A DNA stretch of 35,052 nucleotides, taken from positions 1 to 35,052 of the IMG/VR virus record IMGVR_UViG_3300022918_000025; one strand, 5' to 3'. This document shows, one piece after another, positions 2,697 to 30,123 of this stretch. The stretch comes from a virus. A program made the position numbers and the translations under genes. Within the stretch, counting starts at the first letter, position 1. Each line of letters starts with the position of its first letter. The notes under the pieces were generated by a model. The model was not told where the DNA came from. It did not search any database and saw only the letters and a list, made by a program, of their open reading frames with translations.

Positions 2697-2750
2697 CAAA
2701 CCGGTAGCGCGTATCGAATATACGCTCCACCGAATTAACAAGATGGTTTT
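2693..2750 (+). repeat. Intergenic boundary repeat B, copy 1, with hairpin
   Basis: Shares ATAACAAACCG, a central hairpin, CCGAATNAACA and ATGGTTTT in the same order with 4075-4135. The hairpin here is GCGTAT-CGAAT-ATACGC, extending outward to GGT/ACC with two mismatches. Both copies follow directly on a stop codon. The trailing run of seven T is about 20 bases from the stem, too far for a standard terminator. Confidence 0.6.
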
Positions 2751-2753
2751 TTT

Positions 2754-2763
2754 AGTTACCAGA
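2754..2763 (+). repeat. Direct repeat flanking structured element, left copy
   Basis: AGTTACCAGA, identical to 2942-2951; preceded in both copies by TTTTT and one variable base. The two copies bracket the large inverted-repeat element 2764-2934, as a target duplication or recombination scar would. Confidence 0.65.
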
Positions 2764-2934
2764 GTTAGTTAGTAGCAAGAAGGTGAAGCCTGTAGTCAGG
2801 CAGCATGAAGGCTCTGTTGATAGTGGGGAAGCAGTTCGACACTGCTAGCCTGGCGGATCGTTACCGAGGGCGAGGGTTATCCAGACTATTGAGTTGGTAG
2901 TAACGCACCAGCCACCTTCTTACTACTAATTGAT
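2764..2934 (+). ncRNA. Structured, probably non-coding element of about 170 nt
   Basis: The ends (2764-2785 and 2913-2934) pair over 22 positions with one mismatch and three G-U pairs. The core is AGTAG.AAGAAGGTG against its complement. Inside are GCCTG-TAGT-CAGGC (2788-2801), AGCAG-TTCGACA-CTGCT (2830-2846, a T-loop-like heptaloop) and GTTGGT/ACCAGC (2893-2912) stacking on the long stem. Also, 2846-2853 can pair with 2881-2888. No good gene lies inside; a 31-codon ORF at 2805-2900 has a poor ribosome site. It may be a structured RNA or a MITE-like DNA insertion. It is not a tRNA: no matching acceptor or anticodon arm. Confidence 0.6.
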
Positions 2935-2941
2935 ATTTTTG

Positions 2942-2951
2942 AGTTACCAGA
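2942..2951 (+). repeat. Direct repeat flanking structured element, right copy
   Basis: Second AGTTACCAGA, identical to 2754-2763 and also preceded by TTTTT plus one base. It lies directly in front of the GGGAG of the next gene. Confidence 0.65.
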
Positions 2952-2964
2952 TAGGGAGATAGAG

Positions 2965-3135
2965 ATGGGAGTTGCAATTAGAACAATTTGTGCACTATTT
3001 GCATGTTTTCTATGCGGCGCCGGACTTGCAGTGCTTGGGGTGGTTTCCTCTCTTACAACAGCGGTAGTTGGAACGGTGCTTATACAACTGTCTGGAATCC
3101 TTATTGCCGCTGTTATTACAAAGAGATTCCCATGA
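2965..3135 (+). CDS. Small membrane protein, 56 aa
   Basis: ATG 2965 has GGGAG upstream and the stop overlaps the next start (ATGA at 3132). Two hydrophobic segments are visible, about residues 7-29 and 32-52 (many Ala, Val, Leu, Gly), with a short basic end (K-R-F-P). Likely a two-pass inner-membrane protein made early in infection. Function unknown. Confidence 0.65.
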   Translation: MGVAIRTICALFACFLCGAGLAVLGVVSSLTTAVVGTVLIQLSGILIAAVITKRFP

Positions 3136-3416
3136 ACAAACCTATTTCATTTCAAAACACTCCCTCATGGGAAATGCCTTCCATCATCTTTGACGAAGCA
3201 GAAGAGCTACTAGCTGCTGAGAGGCTAGATGACCTGCTACGTGATGAAGGATCGACTGTTATCTATGACTACATGGATGCAGAGGTTATGACAGCGCTTA
3301 TGTACTCGCTTAAACAAGCTGTGGACATGGGTGAGGATAGAAGCGTGATTGTGTTCGCTAAATCCTTGGTATCTGAGTATGTACGTGCAGGTGAGAAACG
3401 ATTGGAGGGAGTATGA
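3132..3416 (+). CDS. Hypothetical 94-aa acidic helical protein
   Basis: ATG 3132 is coupled to the preceding stop; the frame is open further upstream (to 2988), but that part is the shadow of the membrane gene. The product is acidic in its middle (F-D-E-A-E-E-L-L-A-A-E-R-L-D-D-L-L-R-D-E) and helical. It ends with ATGA overlap to the next gene. Family not recognised. Confidence 0.65.
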   Translation: MNKPISFQNTPSWEMPSIIFDEAEELLAAERLDDLLRDEGSTVIYDYMDAEVMTALMYSLKQAVDMGEDRSVIVFAKSLVSEYVRAGEKRLEGV

Positions 3417-3715
3417 AACATAAACACGCAGATGTAATTCACGCTTATGCAGATGGCGCAGAAATTCAATATAGAAATCTTCAATGCTCTACTCCGAATT
3501 GGACGGACATTACTGAGCCATCATTTTGTGAAGATGTTGAGTATCGAGTAAAGCCAAAGCCTGATGTTTATAAGAGCGTTAGTGCAGTTATTGACCTGAG
3601 ACACTTTGATTTGGCAATGATCCCGCTTGCTAATGAATATTTGCACACAGCAAATCTTGGCTTAACTTTTGACGGAGAAACCGGAAAGCTTAAATCAGCC
3701 GAGGTTATCTCATGA
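3413..3715 (+). CDS. Phage accessory protein with 'KHADVIxAxADGAEIQ' start, 100 aa
   Basis: The N-terminus M-K-H-K-H-A-D-V-I-H-A-Y-A-D-G-A-E-I-Q-Y and the later F-x-E-D-V-E-Y-R-V-K-P are a pattern seen in many phages: a small beta-rich domain of unknown function whose conserved sequence reads like 'ADGxxIQxR...WxDxxxPxFxxxxEYRIKP'. It is coupled on both sides by ATGA overlaps. Confidence 0.78.
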   Translation: MKHKHADVIHAYADGAEIQYRNLQCSTPNWTDITEPSFCEDVEYRVKPKPDVYKSVSAVIDLRHFDLAMIPLANEYLHTANLGLTFDGETGKLKSAEVIS

Positions 3716-3879
3716 AATCCTATCTCAATATTCCCCTATTAAGAGACTACAACCAGGAGAAAAGTTACCTCATGACTGAAGATAAAGCAGATGTGTGGTT
3801 GTGGGTAATAGCTTTCTGTGGTTGTGGGATATTTGTGTGGGGTGGTGATTATTTTTTACAAGCGTTTGGGGCGAAATGA
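3712..3879 (+). CDS. Small single-pass membrane protein, 55 aa
   Basis: ATG 3712 overlaps the previous stop (ATGA). A second in-frame ATG at 3772 with AGGAG upstream would give a 35-aa form. Residues about 28-52 form one hydrophobic, tryptophan-rich segment (V-W-L-W-V-I-A-F-C-G-C-G-I-F-V-W). The end runs into repeat A copy 2 (3866-3914). Confidence 0.55.
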   Translation: MKSYLNIPLLRDYNQEKSYLMTEDKADVWLWVIAFCGCGIFVWGGDYFLQAFGAK

Positions 3880-3914
3880 TGTTGAAGGTCTTGGCGTTAC
3901 GGGCATACATAACG
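3866..3914 (+). repeat. Intergenic boundary repeat A, copy 2
   Basis: Ungapped partner of 2241-2289 (about 38 of 49 identical). Here the first 14 bases also encode the C-terminus of the preceding membrane protein; in copy 1 they are non-coding. Confidence 0.75.
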
Positions 3915-3925
3915 GGAGTGCAGTG

Positions 3926-4069
3926 ATGGAAGATTTAATGACAGAGGAGTACGGAAAGTATTGCGACATGTGTGTTGCTAATGGATTAACGCATTCACAC
4001 ATTATGCCACGCATGCATTGGCAATATTGCTGGGATAGTCTCGAAATGCCGCCTTTGTGGAATCCATAG
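3926..4069 (+). CDS. Hypothetical 47-aa protein, Cys/His-containing
   Basis: ATG 3926 follows GGGAG at 8-9 bases. The frame is open upstream, but that part falls in the repeat and previous gene. It contains C-D-M-C, an H-S-H and a further H and C (Y-C-W-D), which could bind a metal ion. No match to a known zinc finger is claimed. It lies between repeat A copy 2 and repeat B copy 2. Confidence 0.55.
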   Translation: MEDLMTEEYGKYCDMCVANGLTHSHIMPRMHWQYCWDSLEMPPLWNP

Positions 4070-4074
4070 CTGAC

Positions 4075-4135
4075 ATAACAAACCGTATCAGTGCATCGAG
4101 TGACGCACAAACCGAATGAACATTAATGGTTTTAT
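4075..4135 (+). repeat. Intergenic boundary repeat B, copy 2, with hairpin
   Basis: Partner of 2693-2750. Its hairpin is GTGCATC-GAGT-GACGCAC (one mismatch). Conserved flanks are ATAACAAACCG, CCGAATNAACA and ATGGTTTT. The hairpin is kept in both copies while the stem sequence differs, suggesting that structure matters. Confidence 0.6.
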
Positions 4136-4170
4136 GTTCTTCCATCCTATTACATAAAGGGGTTTAAGCA

Positions 4171-4371
4171 ATGAAGTTCAATTTATCAGCAGAAGTAACA
4201 GTAAGTGCATATACCACAGTAGAGGCTGACTCATTGGAAGAGGCTATTGCGATATCAGAAACTAGAGGTGTCGTCTTAGGAGGCCCACAAAGCGGCGCTG
4301 ATGATGAAGAGGAATGGGTTGTTTATGGCCCAGATGGCGAACCTGAAAATATTATTGGAGTGGCAGCATGA
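4171..4371 (+). CDS. Hypothetical 66-aa acidic phage protein
   Basis: Starts M-K-F-N-L-S-A-E-V-T-V-S-A-Y-T-T-V-E-A-D-S-L-E-E-A. The 'beta strand, then A-x-S-x-E-E-A helix' design is common in small phage proteins. The C-terminal half is very acidic (D-D-E-E-E-W). AAAGGGG precedes the ATG. Function unknown. Confidence 0.7.
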   Translation: MKFNLSAEVTVSAYTTVEADSLEEAIAISETRGVVLGGPQSGADDEEEWVVYGPDGEPENIIGVAA

Positions 4372-4482: not shown

Positions 4483-4674
4483 ATGAGAGTGGTTAAAATC
4501 AAAGACTCACTTTGTTCATTTGTGAGCAGGTCTATCGGTGCACTGATACGCAGAGTGATTGCGGCTAAACCCAATGCAGAGAGTCGTGAGCAAGCGTTCT
4601 ATCGCATCCGACAATCCATTGCTGGCGACTTCAAGGATCGTGTAATGAGCGCTTGCATTATCCGCGAGCATTAG
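4483..4674 (+). CDS. Hypothetical basic 63-aa protein
   Basis: ATG 4483 follows a perfect AGGAGG at six bases; the GTG at 4480 is too close. The product is basic and helical (S-L-C-S-F-V-S-R-S-I-G-A-L-I-R-R-V-I-A, then R-E-Q-A-F-Y-R-I-R-Q-S-I-A). The stretch coding for S-F-x-x-R-S-I is repeated in degenerate form at 9816-9854. Confidence 0.65.
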   Translation: MRVVKIKDSLCSFVSRSIGALIRRVIAAKPNAESREQAFYRIRQSIAGDFKDRVMSACIIREH

Positions 4675-4686
4675 ATATAGTTTTAA

Positions 4687-4745
4687 TTGTAGGTCGCTGG
4701 AGAGCGGGCAAGTTTCTGTTGCTTGTACCAACGGAAAGCCTACAA
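4687..4745 (+). other. Three-way-junction-like inverted repeat upstream of homing endonuclease
   Basis: Outer stem TTGTAGG (4687-4693) with CCTACAA (4739-4745). It encloses CGCT-GGAG-AGCG (4695-4706) and GCAAG/CTTGT (4708-4726, one G-U). It fills most of the roughly 100-base gap before the HNH gene. Too small for a tRNA. It could be a 5' leader structure or a relic of the insertion. Confidence 0.4.
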
Positions 4746-4778
4746 CTACTCACTCACTATCGTACAAGGATAATTCAA

Positions 4779-5264
4779 ATGCTTACACAAGCCAGAATTA
4801 AAGAAGTATTACATTTTGATCCGCTTACCGGAATCTTTTCGTGGATAAAGTCATATGGTCGAGCAAAATCTGGATGTAAGGCTGGGTCAACAATTCATCG
4901 TGGATATATAGCAATAAATATTGATGGCAATAGGTATCTTGCGCACAGGCTTGCATGGCTTTATATGTACGGATATTTTCCTCATGTAACAGACCATATA
5001 AACGGCGACACTGGCGATAACAGCATAAGCAACTTACGAGAAGTAAGCCATTCTCAGAATAGCTGGAACTGTAAAAAATTAAGAGCAAATAATAACTCTG
5101 GTTTAAAGGGTGTTGGGTTTCATAAGGCTACTGGAAAATGGAGAGCAAGAGTAACGATAAATTATATTCAATATCATTTAGGTAGTTTTGACACTCCAGA
5201 GCTTGCCCATGAAGCATACACTAAAAAAGCAAAAGAATTGCATGGGGTGTTTTATCGTGGATGA
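4779..5264 (+). CDS. HNH homing endonuclease with AP2 DNA-binding domain (161 aa)
   Basis: HNH core: H-R-L-A-W at 56-60, D-H-I-N-G-D at 72-77, N-x-x-x-N-L-R at 81-87 and N94. The C-terminal AP2-like domain, about 107-155, has S-G-L-K-G-V-G-F, W-R-A-R-V and L-G-S-F-D-T-P-E-L-A-H-E-A-Y. ATG 4779 is chosen because AAGGA precedes it and the paralogue at 10270 starts at the same residue (M-L-T-Q); the frame is open back to 4653. Such genes are free-standing mobile endonucleases that cut DNA lacking the insertion. It sits just before the ERF gene. Confidence 0.9.
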   Translation: MLTQARIKEVLHFDPLTGIFSWIKSYGRAKSGCKAGSTIHRGYIAINIDGNRYLAHRLAWLYMYGYFPHVTDHINGDTGDNSISNLREVSHSQNSWNCKKLRANNNSGLKGVGFHKATGKWRARVTINYIQYHLGSFDTPELAHEAYTKKAKELHGVFYRG

Positions 5265-5317: not shown

Positions 5318-5965
5318 ATGGACAAGATAGCGAAAGCATTAGTGAAAGCACAGAAAGAGTTTGCGCCAGCACTCAAGACAGCAACGAACCCACACTTCCG
5401 TTCTAAATACGTTGGGCTGGATGGATGTATCGAGGCGGTCATTGATGCTCTGAATAACAACGGATTGTTCCTGATGCAGAAGTCGCATGAGTGTGACGAT
5501 GGCGTAAAGGTAGAGACAATCTTTATCCACGAATCAGGCGAGACCATTACAGGCGGAATATTGCACGTTCCAGCCGCTAAACCAGATGCACAGGGGTATG
5601 GGTCAGCATTGACGTATGCAAGGCGCTACAGCCTCATGGCGGCGTGCGGAATAGCACCAGAGGACGATGACGGAAATAGCTCTGTCAAGGCTACTGCAAC
5701 ACAGGCTACAGAGAACACTCGTAAACAGTTGCAGGCGTTAACGCCAGAACAAGGTGCAGTTGAGTACACCAAATGGATGCAGGTTAAATCCTTGCTGGTT
5801 GATGAAGACGGCCATCCTGATAACGAGCGCGTTACAGATGAGTGGGGCAAGCTGGCAAGTAACGTCAGAACCGCCATTAAGAAGCACGGCGATAGCTTAA
5901 AAGCGGTCAACGAAATAGATAGTGCATCGCAAGAACACATGAACTCAATGACAAGGACTGAATAA
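5318..5965 (+). CDS. erf: ERF-family single-strand annealing protein (215 aa)
   Basis: Residues about 1-130 match the ERF recombinase fold: the start pattern [11 protein letters not shown], then F-R-S-K-Y-V-G-L-D, and the hallmark [20 protein letters not shown]. The C-terminal third is variable and probably helical. ERF proteins anneal complementary single strands and support phage recombination and genome circularisation, normally with SSB. SSB follows here with a TAATG overlap. GGAGAAGG precedes the ATG. Confidence 0.93.
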
Positions 5966-6399
5966 TGGCTTCCGTAAATAAAGTAATTCTAATTGGAAAC
6001 CTCACACGCGATCCGGAGCTGCGGTACATGCCAAACGGAGAGGCGGTAGCTAACTTCTCAATTGCTTGTAACGAAAGTTGGAAAGACAAGAATAATGTAA
6101 AACAGGAGCGTGCTGAGTTCGTCAATATCGTCATGTACAGAAAGGTAGCTGAGATTGCTGGCGAGTATTTGAAGAAAGGCTCTAGTGTTTACCTGGAAGG
6201 CCGATTACAAACTCGTAAATGGGAAAAGGATGGCGTAACTCGATACACCACGGAGGTTATCTGCGACCAGATGCAGATGTTAGGTGCAAAGCCAGCAGGC
6301 GGTGAATCCGTATCAGTGCAGAGCCAAGACCATAAACCTAATGAAGGAAAAAAGGTTTCAAGTGGTTTTGATGATTTTGAAGATGATATCCCATTTTAG
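5965..6399 (+). CDS. ssb: Single-stranded DNA-binding protein (144 aa)
   Basis: Bacterial-type SSB: N-terminal OB fold ([43 protein letters not shown]), a short linker and the acidic tip D-D-I-P-F that recruits replication and repair proteins. Length is near the lower end for this family. Coupled to ERF by TAATG, so the two are made together for annealing and replication. Confidence 0.96.
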
Positions 6400-10269: not shown

Positions 10270-10806
10270 ATGTTAACTCAAGATAGACTCAAAGAATTAT
10301 TACATTACAATCCGCTTACTGGCACATTTACTTGGCTGCCAAGAGACATTAAGCATTTCATATGCAAAAGAACTTGGTCTACCTGGCATTCAAATTTCGC
10401 AAATAAAGTAGCAGGAAATACATCCCCAAAAGGTTATCGAACTATAAGGATAGCGCTGTATGGAGATAAGTCATATCTATCTCACAGGTTGGCTTGGCTC
10501 TACGTTTATGGAGAATGGCCTAAAGAGCATATTGATCACATAAACGGGAATCGATCTGATAATCGAATAATTAATCTACGCGATGTTGACAGGCTATGCA
10601 ATGCTCAAAACCAAAGAACAACGAAAAGGGAAAGCAAACTTCCGCTTGGTGTTTATTTCTACAAAAACAAGCCTGTCAGGCCATATAGCGCAAGTCTAAG
10701 AGTTGACTATAAAGTGAAGTTTTTGGGATATTTCGATACGCCAGAAGAAGCGCATGATGTTTATGTAAAAGCTAAAAGGCTTTATCACAAGGGGTGTACT
10801 ATTTAA
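10270..10806 (+). CDS. HNH homing endonuclease with AP2-like domain, paralogue (178 aa)
   Basis: Same design as 4779-5264: M-L-T-Q-x-R-x-K-E start, P-L-T-G-T-F-T-W, H-R-L-A-W at 72-76, D-H-I-N-G-N at 89-94, N-x-x-x-N-L-R and an AP2-like end (P-L-G-V-Y-F, L-G-Y-F-D-T-P-E-E-A-H-D-V-Y). It is last on the plus strand; its TAA overlaps the TAA of the converging late operon. A mobile endonuclease gene probably acquired separately or duplicated from the other copy. Confidence 0.9.
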   Translation: MLTQDRLKELLHYNPLTGTFTWLPRDIKHFICKRTWSTWHSNFANKVAGNTSPKGYRTIRIALYGDKSYLSHRLAWLYVYGEWPKEHIDHINGNRSDNRIINLRDVDRLCNAQNQRTTKRESKLPLGVYFYKNKPVRPYSASLRVDYKVKFLGYFDTPEEAHDVYVKAKRLYHKGCTI

Positions 10807-11075
10807 TGCTTGCTTGAGAATATGTATTGCTCGGTGCGCCCAATTCTTTCTGAGTTTTGGGCCTGCCCCGCTTCTAGGGATTGCCATCTTCTTTCGTTCT
10901 CACTTCTAGGCACTATCTCTTTTGCTTTCTCGTTAAGCTGGTTTATCTTTTCCGACTGAACAGATTGTTCTTTCTGCAAATCTACTAATGTCACTGCTAT
11001 CCAGAACAGGAACCCAAGCAATACCGCTACTACAATGTTATTAGCATTGCGCGATAATGCGGTTTCCGTAACCAT
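10803..11075 (-). CDS. Single-pass membrane protein with coiled coil, end of lysis module (90 aa)
   Basis: An N-terminal hydrophobic segment (residues 13-31: N-I-V-V-A-V-L-L-G-F-L-F-W-I-A-V-T-L-V) is followed by a charged helical region (D-L-Q-K-E-Q-S-V-Q-S-E-K-I-N-Q-L-N-E-K). It is the last late gene, one base after the Rz-like stop. Placement suggests a lysis role (holin-related or antiholin), but one pass plus coiled coil is not diagnostic. Confidence 0.65.
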   Translation of the reverse strand: MVTETALSRNANNIVVAVLLGFLFWIAVTLVDLQKEQSVQSEKINQLNEKAKEIVPRSENERRWQSLEAGQAQNSERIGRTEQYIFSSKH

Positions 11076-26562: not shown

Positions 26563-28630
26563 CTTTTTCCTCTACTTCTGCGGCTTGTGCGACCATTTCA
26601 GGTGTAGGCACGATGGCAGCTTCTTTAAGTAATTTAACGACTTCAGCCTGTGTTTTATCCACATTAGCAATCTTCTGCTCTAAATCGATGTAATGGTCAG
26701 AAGCTCCCTGCAATAACTCAACCGCTGTCCTGTGACGTTCGTCATCGGACTTTTCTTGCTCTAATTGAATTTTGGCGGTGTTATCACGAGATTTTGCAAT
26801 GGCGGCATCCAGCTTCTTGGTTAAATCATCTATCTTTTGTTGCGCTTCAGATTGAACCTGCTGAATCATCTGCTCAGCTTTTTGCGCGATTGGGTTATTC
26901 TGTTTATTCTGCAAGTCTTCTTCTGAGTAGATAGGGGACTCTTTACCTACCTGCATAACATCCCATACCTGTTCTAATAACTCGCGAACGTCTGTCATCT
27001 GCATCATCTGTTCATTACCCTGAACCAGTTGCAGGAATCCATTTAACTTATTAGCCAAGACCTCTTTTGCCATGAACGTCTGGGAGCCAGTGGCGAACCA
27101 GTCCATGAAGTTAGCTTTACCATAAGCCTTTATCTTGGCCCACATGTCACCCTTCTCTTTACCGAGTACCATCGATACAGTCTCAGGCTCAAGGAAGTCC
27201 ATGTCCCAATCGATCAAGGCTTCAATCTCTGCTTCCGTGGTCTGATCAAGATGTCCTATTACCTCTTTCAATGGAAGCGAAGAGGCATTCATGATCATGC
27301 TGATGCCAGTGGCAGTTTTATTCAGGTTCTGGCTATCGTTACCTTGGGTGTACTTAGTAATACCTGTGTCGTCATCAGAGAAGCCTTCGGACAGTTCAAT
27401 GACTTTTTCCCATCCATTGGTCACATCGGGAACGATATGCCATGTCATTGCATCCTTACGTTCGTCTGCTGTAAGTCCAGGACGAGTCTGGAAGCGCTTA
27501 CCAGGGAACAATTTGAAGTCTTCTGATACTTCGAACTTGCTACGGTCAGCCGAGAACATATTCAATTGACTAAACGCTTTGCCTTCAATGAACAACCTGA
27601 ACGCTGCATTAGTCACACGTTGATGCGGTTCGTTGTTCTCCGCAATCCCAACGCCCCACATCTCATGCTCTACTTTCTCATAGAGCGTTCTGTATGCCGG
27701 GCGGCGATCATCCTTATATTCGTTCTTCTCTGCTTTGATCACATGACCACCAGCCATAATGACAATAGCCTCTATCATGTCGTATTCATCTTCTGGGACT
27801 ACTTCACCACCGCCATCTGTGCGCCATTGGTTGAATTGTTTTACAGGAACAAGGCCAAAGTAACGGATGAACCAGATTCGCCCTTCCTTGGTGTATCTGT
27901 AGAGGTTCTGGCGTACTTCCTGCGTCCTGTCAGAGCCTTCACTGGTGTTGTTGGTGACTTTCTCGGTCAATGCACGCCTTATGGCCTCGTCGTTATATCC
28001 TTCCTGGCCTTTTAACTGCGATACGAAGTACGGGTCTTTGCGTGATGCCCAGAATATTCCTCGTCCTTCTTCCAGTGTTTCGGCTTCAGGGTCAGGATAA
28101 CAATCCATAGTCTGTGCGTTCTCAAAGTAAGGGCAAGCGTAGTCAAAGGTGATCTGTTCTATTCCACCATTCGCACTAGGCTGGACAGCGGTGTATGTCT
28201 TCTTCTTGACGAATGGGCCGAAGTTGAAACCTGTACCGTATACACATATCGAGTCTGTCAGTGATTCAGTTGTTTCCCTGAACTTAGCTTCTTCCAGTTG
28301 CCATTTCAGTATGTCTTCCATCGTATCGGCGAACTCTTTCAAGTCTTCCGATGTTGGAGTGGTGTCGAATGGCAATTGTCCTGTGCCGAACATCACATCT
28401 TTTATCTTGGCTCGTGCTGAACGTATCTTGGAGCGAGAGGAGCCGATGAATACACGTGACTTCTGGGCCTTGCTTATTCCAGTTCCGCGAGTGTCATCCT
28501 CACGACTAATACGCATGTTGTCTTCATAACAACGCAACATCACATCCTCTTGGGGTTTTCTACGCTCAAGCCAGTCTGTAAACTGCTCCTGCAGCGTAGC
28601 AGATAGCCCTGTTAACGGTATATTGTCCAT
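26435..28630 (-). CDS. Portal protein, P22 gp1-like (731 aa)
   Basis: Length close to P22 portal (725). Features include the N-terminal F-I-G-S-S-R-S-K-I-R-S-A-R-A-K-I-K-D-V-M-F, then D-S-I-C-V-Y-G-T-G-F, E-N-A-Q-T-M-D-C-Y-P-D-P and M-W-G-V-G-I-A-E-N. The helical C-terminal region about 590-690 (A-E-Q-M-I-Q-Q-V-Q-S-E-A-Q-Q-K-I-D-D-L) could form a barrel as in P22. The dodecameric portal is the DNA entry vertex and binds terminase. TAATG-coupled to terL. Confidence 0.9.
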   Translation of the reverse strand: MDNIPLTGLSATLQEQFTDWLERRKPQEDVMLRCYEDNMRISREDDTRGTGISKAQKSRVFIGSSRSKIRSARAKIKDVMFGTGQLPFDTTPTSEDLKEFADTMEDILKWQLEEAKFRETTESLTDSICVYGTGFNFGPFVKKKTYTAVQPSANGGIEQITFDYACPYFENAQTMDCYPDPEAETLEEGRGIFWASRKDPYFVSQLKGQEGYNDEAIRRALTEKVTNNTSEGSDRTQEVRQNLYRYTKEGRIWFIRYFGLVPVKQFNQWRTDGGGEVVPEDEYDMIEAIVIMAGGHVIKAEKNEYKDDRRPAYRTLYEKVEHEMWGVGIAENNEPHQRVTNAAFRLFIEGKAFSQLNMFSADRSKFEVSEDFKLFPGKRFQTRPGLTADERKDAMTWHIVPDVTNGWEKVIELSEGFSDDDTGITKYTQGNDSQNLNKTATGISMIMNASSLPLKEVIGHLDQTTEAEIEALIDWDMDFLEPETVSMVLGKEKGDMWAKIKAYGKANFMDWFATGSQTFMAKEVLANKLNGFLQLVQGNEQMMQMTDVRELLEQVWDVMQVGKESPIYSEEDLQNKQNNPIAQKAEQMIQQVQSEAQQKIDDLTKKLDAAIAKSRDNTAKIQLEQEKSDDERHRTAVELLQGASDHYIDLEQKIANVDKTQAEVVKLLKEAAIVPTPEMVAQAAEVEEKDESGTGEEASGSDDVAISPEQLGGDSAGVAEEAPVPFIEPGI

Positions 28631-30123
28631 TACAGTCCGAAGTATTCAGGTTCGTACTGTGGCAGCGGTTTAAGTGCATCCGATACCGGAGCAGCAAATG
28701 TCAAAGCCAGAGCGTCTCCCATGTCAGGTGAACGAATGCCGCGTTTCTTCATATCTTCCTTCTTCTCAAGTATTGTTCTGTTGTTACTATCGGTTTTATA
28801 GGACGGCCCTGAAAGGTCAGCATGTAACGAGTCTTCATCTGGTATCTGCACTCGTCCTTCTTCCAGCCAGTCCCTCATCAGGCACCACATCTCTATGCGT
28901 CTATTGTTGTATATCTCTGGGTTATTGGCGCGTGAGCCGAAGTTAACGCCCATGACATTCGTCCAGCCTAACTCTCGTAATCTATCGACAATCCCTACGC
29001 CACGCTCACCAACGTCTATGAACATGGCAGCAGGATTGGATAATTTAAGTATCTTGGAGCATATCGCCACCACTTCCATCGGTGACTTGCCTTGGAACGT
29101 GTCTATCTTTGTACACTTTCGGTTACGCCTATAGGCAATGGCTGTTCTGTCTTTACCCTCACCAGCAGGGTCAACACCAACTATCAATGGCCCGCTTGGG
29201 TCTTCGTACGACTTTCTGGCTCTTAGTATGAACTCTGACTTGATCAATGATTCTATTCCGGTAACTTGAAATGCCTCTGTCGCAGTCGCTGGGTATTCTT
29301 GCTTAAATAACGTATCTGACTTTAGCTCGATTATCTTGGCTCTGCGCCATGCCATCTGGTCGTTAGTTAACTGGTAAAAGTCTCTGTATGCAGCTTCTTC
29401 AGCCGTACACTTAAAGTCTCTGGAATCTCTCTTATATTCATCCTGCCAATACCAAGGCACGAATACAGGTAAGTAATCACTGATACCAGCTTCTGCATCC
29501 TGCCACATCGAGTGGAAGTAATTTCCTATTCCGTTAGCAGTAGATTCTAAGAAAACCTCTGTGCCTGGCATATCAGGTATCGACTGCATCACACCAGCAG
29601 CATGTTCTTCAGCATTAGGCCAGAATGCTACTTCGGAACCGTGGAAGAACTGAATCGTTCCGCCTCGACCTGTACCCTTGGTTCGTGCTGTTCCGACCTT
29701 GTAGTCGCTCTCCAGTAAGTCGAATTTCAATTCATTGGCATTAGCTGCGCCTGTGTGTGGTTTTACTAGAGGATTATTGTTCTCGTGGTATCTATTTGCC
29801 ATCTCGAACAGGTTCTTAGTAGCCTCTTCCTCGTGAGTGAGGATGAAAGCCCGAATGCCTCTGTTCCAGCTAGTCTTGTGGTAAGCCCTGCCCTCAACGT
29901 AAGTCGAGAAGCCTTGTTGCCTGCCCTTTAACCCTATTATGCGAACCTTGCCAGTTGCGGCTCGTTGTTCTTCTGCTTTCTTGTGAAGGTATAACTGAGC
30001 CTTGTTTAGTATCAATGGCTCAACTGAGCCTGATTTGGTGCGTATCTTTAAGCATTTAGCAGCGAAGTCTGGATAGCTGTCTTTCAATGCTTGCATAGTA
30101 ACAAGCAGTTCTTCTTTATTCAC
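28630..30123 (-). CDS. terL: Terminase large subunit, P22 gp2-like (497 aa)
   Basis: ATPase with Walker A-like G-R-Q-Q-G-F-S-T (67-74) and a nuclease domain with V-G-V-D-P-A-G-E-G, M-F-I-D-V-G-E-R-G and D-M-G-D-A-L-A-L. Length equals P22 gp2 (499). It cuts concatemers and drives packaging with TerS and portal. GTG start overlapping the terS stop (GTGA), an uncommon start that may limit its level. Confidence 0.95.
   Translation of the reverse strand: MNKEELLVTMQALKDSYPDFAAKCLKIRTKSGSVEPLILNKAQLYLHKKAEEQRAATGKVRIIGLKGRQQGFSTYVEGRAYHKTSWNRGIRAFILTHEEEATKNLFEMANRYHENNNPLVKPHTGAANANELKFDLLESDYKVGTARTKGTGRGGTIQFFHGSEVAFWPNAEEHAAGVMQSIPDMPGTEVFLESTANGIGNYFHSMWQDAEAGISDYLPVFVPWYWQDEYKRDSRDFKCTAEEAAYRDFYQLTNDQMAWRRAKIIELKSDTLFKQEYPATATEAFQVTGIESLIKSEFILRARKSYEDPSGPLIVGVDPAGEGKDRTAIAYRRNRKCTKIDTFQGKSPMEVVAICSKILKLSNPAAMFIDVGERGVGIVDRLRELGWTNVMGVNFGSRANNPEIYNNRRIEMWCLMRDWLEEGRVQIPDEDSLHADLSGPSYKTDSNNRTILEKKEDMKKRGIRSPDMGDALALTFAAPVSDALKPLPQYEPEYFGL

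Follow-up and report, generated by a model that had tools for sequence, protein, structure and literature searches.

A structured element between early genes of a phage genome as a probable divergent member of a phage RNA family

The virus record IMGVR_UViG_3300022918_000025, which is 35,052 bp long and is called here the window, has a phage gene order and carries a structured element between two small open reading frames (ORFs) of its early region. One of these ORFs ends at 2696, and the next (2965-3135), directly after the element, is a small putative membrane protein gene. Within the element itself there is no ORF of 40 or more amino acids, in keeping with the original prediction, which had seen no convincing gene inside. 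The comparisons of sequence and predicted fold described below point, with a probability of roughly 0.6, to a non-coding RNA of the + strand that would be a divergent member of a phage and prophage RNA family unmatched by Rfam 15. The features of the locus are collected in Table 1.

The two strands of the terminal stem (P1) pair over 22 positions with one mismatch (C2776/A2922) and three G-U pairs, as had been read from the sequence at the outset, and this stem ranks first among the stems of its span across the window. The minimum free energy (MFE) of 2764-2935 is −68.9 kcal/mol, with a z of −4.36, and none of 200 shuffles folded equally well. The minus strand of 2754-2951 also folds unusually well (z −4.40), which is to be expected with a long terminal inverted repeat. 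The element proper is the 172 nt of 2764-2935, not the full 2754-2951 that had been delimited earlier. Inside P1 the MFE structure contains a hairpin (P2) that starts two nt from the 5′ strand and a last hairpin (P5) that lies flush against the 3′ strand. In the middle, AGGCU 2809-2813 can pair by eye with AGCCU 2847-2851, and UUGAUAGU 2817-2824 with ACUAUUGA 2885-2892, the latter pairing being present also in the MFE structure; since these two competing pairings cross, the middle could form a pseudoknot. The tRNA-like T-loop that had been pointed out there does exist, as the hairpin GCAG-TTCGACA-CTGC, but is given little weight because it is located in the part that varies freely across the family.

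Table 1. Coordinates of the element, its flanking repeats and the main genes of the window
Feature	Position	Strand	Remarks
Cro-like gene (P22)	1687-1869	minus	
Early gene run	begins ~1917	+	
Left direct repeat TTTTTTAGTTACCAGA	2748-2763	+	abuts P1
P1 5′ strand	2764-2785	+	22-position terminal stem
P2 hairpin GCCUG-UAGU-CAGGC	2788-2801	+	MFE; models R2 and R3 align it to the family P2
Variable middle	2809-2892	+	includes the T-loop-like hairpin 2831-2845
P5 hairpin GUUGGUAGUAACGCACCAGC	2893-2912	+	MFE; flush against P1 3′ strand
P1 3′ strand	2913-2934	+	
Right direct repeat TTTTTGAGTTACCAGA	2936-2951	+	begins one base past the P1 end
Erf and SSB genes	5318-6399	+	in the early gene run
Large terminase	28630-30123	minus	among the late genes

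The family was reached through phage loci (designated by L numbers) fetched with the Erf, 3413-3715 and terminase proteins, which were screened for long-range stems, for stems of low fold z, and for the topology of the element: a terminal stem, one hairpin immediately within its 5′ strand and a second one flush against its 3′ strand. These screens led to L069 (fold z −5.06), to L281/L282 and to L279. L282 and L279 have a common end sequence, and their stem differs by compensatory changes. An exact pattern taken from their closing strand (P1) matched 18 IMG/VR contigs, including L369, the middle of which is clearly homologous in sequence to the L069 module (local alignment z 12.7; 69% identity over 139 nt). 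A 19-base signature of the last hairpin P5, GGTATCAAGCCCGGCCCGC, then matched at least 120 IMG/VR stretches. The covariance model R2, which was built without the window, also recovered members from 9 of 399 genomes in the host-related order and, with strong matches, from 3 of 398 in the phylum. Several candidates were set aside on the way: the motif pair GCGAGGG...CAGAC, which three elements had seemed to share, is not a family feature; the stems of L144 and L155 are coding sequence or repeats; and the P1 stem of L360 5139-5262, which has only the flush hairpin in common with the family, was not counted as a member. A screen for boxA plus stem recovered only L069. The MAFFT alignment A4, in which P5 of several members was misplaced, was excluded from model building.

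The family modules are 100-270 nt long and have one terminal stem. P1 comprises 7 to 21 bp, its outer pairs being free in sequence and its inner end being GCGG/CCGC, a feature kept in 43-44 of 44 members. P2, just inside P1, is typically GGCGUG-GAWGGA-CACGC, and P5, flush against P1, is typically GCCGGUAUCAAGCCCGGC; the loops of these two hairpins are near-invariant, and the middle varies in length and sequence. In the alignment of 44 sequences, 97.2% of the cells pair and 112 cells are changed on both sides, giving a covariation score of 0.409 that was reached by none of 500 shuffles and by no slid version. As P5 belonged to the search pattern for most of the 44 rows, P1 and P2 are the informative helices for covariation. 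In an independent set of 11 sequences, double changes were found at 14 of 26 pairs, again a result that none of 500 shuffles reached. Rfam 15 detected in the family loci only tRNAs and one Burkholderiales-2 RNA and left the family itself unmatched; no earlier description was met in the openly licensed literature, although one may exist elsewhere.

Considering the layout of the family, we judge it likely that the window element is one of its divergent members. The family is defined by a P1 of 7 bp or more that joins the two ends, a P2 of some 5 bp no further than 3 nt from the P1 5′ strand, and a P5 of 5-6 bp with a loop of about 8 nt that lies flush against P1 and resembles that of the members; the element has all three, with 22 positions in P1, P2 at 2788-2801 and P5 at 2893-2912. 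Model R2 gave 11.0 bits to the element on the + strand, aligning P1, P2 and P5 in register, and 0.4 bits on the minus strand; the best match of a further model, R3, falls in the same register. The element P5, GUUGGUAGUAACGCACCAGC, is identical at 15 of 20 positions to its counterpart in the second L373 module, 10901-11042 (GCCGGUAGUUGCGCACCGGC), with a compensatory change from C-G to U-A and the same predicted fold. Only 0.04% of real 20-nt hairpins from phage DNA come equally close to the P5 of any member. When the interior was shuffled with P1 held, a P2 together with a flush P5 arose in 1.7% of cases, and in 0.01% once similarity of P5 was also required. In the inner part of P1, the element and L373 10901-11042 have GAAG/CTTC in common, and at the two differing pairs both bases have changed. 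The presence of this P1-P2-P5 layout of a covarying family, in register and on the + strand, supports the structured-RNA reading that had been proposed as one of two.

Several observations weigh against membership. The inner end of P1 is GGUG/CACC in the element instead of GCGG/CCGC, and the P2 loop is UAGU instead of GGAWGGA, so that the family position of this hairpin is kept and its loop is not; the GGAWGGA loop is missing in L069 and L373 10901-11042 as well. The R2 match has an E value of 0.0024 in 501 nt, which becomes about 0.17 for the whole window, and the search of the window with default filters gave no match. The R3 match (6.9 bits, E 0.19 in 501 nt) taken alone is not significant, and blastn of the element against any family member found nothing significant. 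Moreover, the family was reached by searching for the topology of the element itself, and the common layout was thus partly selected for; similarity of P5, however, played no part in that search.

Searches for direct homologues returned the following. Rfam 15 matched nothing in the window at gathering or permissive thresholds, which agrees with the original statement that no known family has such a layout, and neither ARAGORN nor Rfam matched the element to a tRNA or tmRNA. In phages and plasmids, blastn of the element gave chance matches only, among them 26 nt of Klebsiella phage Miami and 32 nt of L079, both antisense within a protein gene. Model R1, a covariance model built from the element alone, detected nothing credible among 160 related loci and 9 records, nor in 393 genomes from the host-related family, its single match being a false one inside a GGDEF/EAL gene. 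The exact pattern of the P1 bases had 55 chance matches in IMG/VR, none with the complementary strand. The proteins 1917-2231 and 2965-3135 have no relatives in IMG/VR, and the relatives of the terminase, at 91% identity, are fragments that do not reach the early region; in the absence of IMG/VR relatives of the two proteins, no close relative of the early region, and with it no empty site holding a single copy of TTTTTNAGTTACCAGA, was found. Of the two signs that had been suggested for homologues, compensatory changes in P1 are thus seen in probable homologues, and an empty site is not.

The missing invariant family bases, the lack of significant sequence similarity to members and the weak model scores would also be explained if the element were an orphan structured RNA of its phage lineage, serving the early operon in cis as a leader or processing element, with a layout convergent with that of the family. 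Its place in the + strand run of early genes, ahead of the small putative membrane protein gene, would suit such a role. The 15/20 identity of P5 at the exact structural place and the in-register, strand-specific R2 match argue against convergence, and we regard this explanation as unlikely. It is very improbable that the element serves processive antitermination of the early operon in the manner of nut or put sites. The Cro-like gene and the downstream Erf and SSB genes do fit a left operon like that of P22, the L069 module is preceded by operator-like palindromes and a near-perfect boxA (GGTCTTTAACAA), and the window element itself has a boxA-like TTAACAA upstream. However, the element is located about 800 nt downstream of the likely promoter, and the other members occur on either strand relative to their neighbours, not at operon starts and with no boxA found before them.

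An inserted element, MITE-like (miniature inverted-repeat transposable element) or otherwise moved, would fold through its terminal inverted repeat and be bracketed by a target duplication. The direct repeats that had been noted as 10 bp long are in fact 16 nt long, 15/16 identical, and abut the stem on both sides, and a 16-nt repeat with one mismatch in this position is hard to dismiss as chance. The L441 module 4025-4185 likewise has a 12-nt direct repeat, CGATCTTTTACA, that abuts P1 within 2 nt on each side, and the family members occupy many different genomic places. Against this, the terminal stems are free in sequence yet covarying, unlike the repeats bound by transposases: the outer pairs of P1 show all four pair types among the 44 members. 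Because the family preserves the pairing of the terminal stem while its sequence changes, a classical MITE, the other reading originally offered, is unlikely. The window holds a single copy, most phages have one or two, no transposase is common to the loci, and, L441 apart, 116 family members have no excess of flanking repeats over shuffled pairs. The element and MITEs are alike in the terminal inverted repeat with abutting direct repeats, and differ in that the family keeps the pairing of its ends rather than their sequence and is not multi-copy. We hold insertion to be quite unlikely as an account of the element; the repeats are possibly footprints of insertion that decay, and not a defining feature of the family. 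As to a retron msr-msd RNA, which would have a reverse transcriptase gene beside it, no reverse transcriptase was seen among the PHROG/Pfam matches of the neighbours scanned, a scan in which no reverse transcriptase model was run.

For the preferred reading, that of a divergent family member, the placement of the family is informative. The family site is intergenic and unannotated in the Komagataeibacter phages phiKX1 and phiKX2 and in Caulobacter DMCA, Alcaligenes QDWS595 and Pseudanabaena Pan3, and model R3 confirms all five sites. The neighbouring genes are varied (portal, endolysin, amidase, exonuclease, methyltransferase, terminase) and have the same or the opposite strand as the family member about equally often; therefore the family is not an operon leader as a rule, and its placement is gene-like and independent of operons. 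The description of the element as an early-operon RNA consequently holds locally and does not extend to the family. A subset of members has a −10-like hexamer whose end is about 6 nt from P1 on the upstream side, and terminators downstream of members are not clearly enriched (9 of 114 against 11 of 313). Genes for tRNAs lie within 600 nt of 15 of the 116 members, compared with about 5 members expected by our own arithmetic from tRNA density; in 13 of the 15 they are on the same strand.

Among known systems, the nearest in kind are ROOL and GOLLD, phage- or prophage-borne structured RNAs of unknown function that are often near tRNA genes, ROOL having multiple pseudoknots (PMC12286853). The family shares with them the phage and prophage location, the structured RNA and the tRNA neighbourhood, and differs in size, with 100-270 nt and one terminal stem as compared to about 660 nt and more than 800 nt; the Rfam models of ROOL and GOLLD have no match in the window or in any related locus tested. 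A likeness exists also to the bacterial Y RNA YrlA (RF02553), in which a terminal stem closed by the 5′ and 3′ ends carries a structured head. Since RF02553 has no match even at an E value of 10, and since neither the window nor any of 12 other phage records has a Ro/Rsr gene (TROVE, PF05731), with a control matched in Deinobacterium, the Y RNA reading is rejected. With HK022 put and lambda or P22 nut, the common points are a structured RNA in the early left operon and the boxA before the L069 module. The put RNA of HK022 is much shorter and stands at the start of the transcript, and the family is not tied to operon starts.

Our guess for the mechanism is a trans-acting RNA with a constant clamp and a variable head. 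P1, P2 and P5 would form a compact clamp that may be recognised by a partner common to many bacteria, and the clamp would present the variable middle, which would set the specificity; an invariant base serving as a platform for the partner, taken together with a middle that determines specificity, would imply that the RNA acts in trans. In the window, the RNA would be excised from the early transcript, or made alongside it, between the small early genes, and double-strand cleavage of P1 is a plausible route of release. On a larger scale, the family may tentatively be viewed as a large unrecognised class of phage RNA genes, in which a constant clamp would be read by a conserved bacterial partner, a hypervariable structured head would diversify under host-phage conflict, and the unit would pass from phage to phage as one small RNA gene; the window element would be an early-diverged example that still has an insertion footprint. 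If the preferred reading is right, a single orphan hairpin has opened the way to an RNA family in phages of many proteobacterial hosts, with at least 120 IMG/VR stretches, strong covariation, no Rfam entry, and unannotated members in phiKX1, phiKX2, DMCA and QDWS595. An invariant clamp with a hypervariable head is unusual for a phage RNA and would point to an identifiable shared bacterial partner; the cultured carriers, Komagataeibacter phiKX1/phiKX2 and Caulobacter DMCA, allow direct tests by deletion, RNA-seq and pull-down.

Further observations were made in the family loci. In L373 (10300-11500), L370 (1500-2250) and L282 (2300-3250), successive modules lie in gene-free stretches of about 1 kb of large phages, with a conserved UGGUGAAUGCGC after P1 and further structured segments, and these multi-module stretches are possibly a larger RNA built of modules. 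In L069 (1530-1660 and 2243-2274), two operator-like palindromes (TACCGATnTCGGTA) and a near-perfect boxA of rrn type (GGTCTTTAACAA) precede the module, and a terminator-like hairpin followed by a T run closes the gene-free stretch; the arrangement resembles that of a stable RNA transcribed under antitermination, with a transcript of about 680 nt.

Two other structures were met in the screened loci. On the minus strand of L046 (~4235-4355), L073 (~4193-4316) and L083/L084 (2026-2145) there is a different conserved hairpin of 120-124 nt, CTGTGGTCTTGGCTCT...CAAGACCACACAG, that ends in a T run and whose base changes keep the pairing; in L046 and L073 it lies about 1.7 kb upstream of Erf, and it has no Rfam match in L046, L073 or L083. 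L280 (207-347) contains a MITE-like long hairpin that is noncoding, near-perfect and 141 nt in length (TTAGCATTACA...TGTAATGCTAA; fold z −8.7).

In the window itself, the hairpin GCGTAT-CGAAT-ATACGC followed by GAATTAACAAG lies upstream of the element (2704-2741), in a weak boxA-like order as in rrn leaders. A 49-nt direct repeat (2241-2289 and 3866-3914, 78% identical) is placed upstream of the start codons of two small early ORFs. Two HNH endonuclease genes (4653-5264 and 10270-10806), both of phrog_99 and one of them directly upstream of Erf, are likely homing endonucleases.
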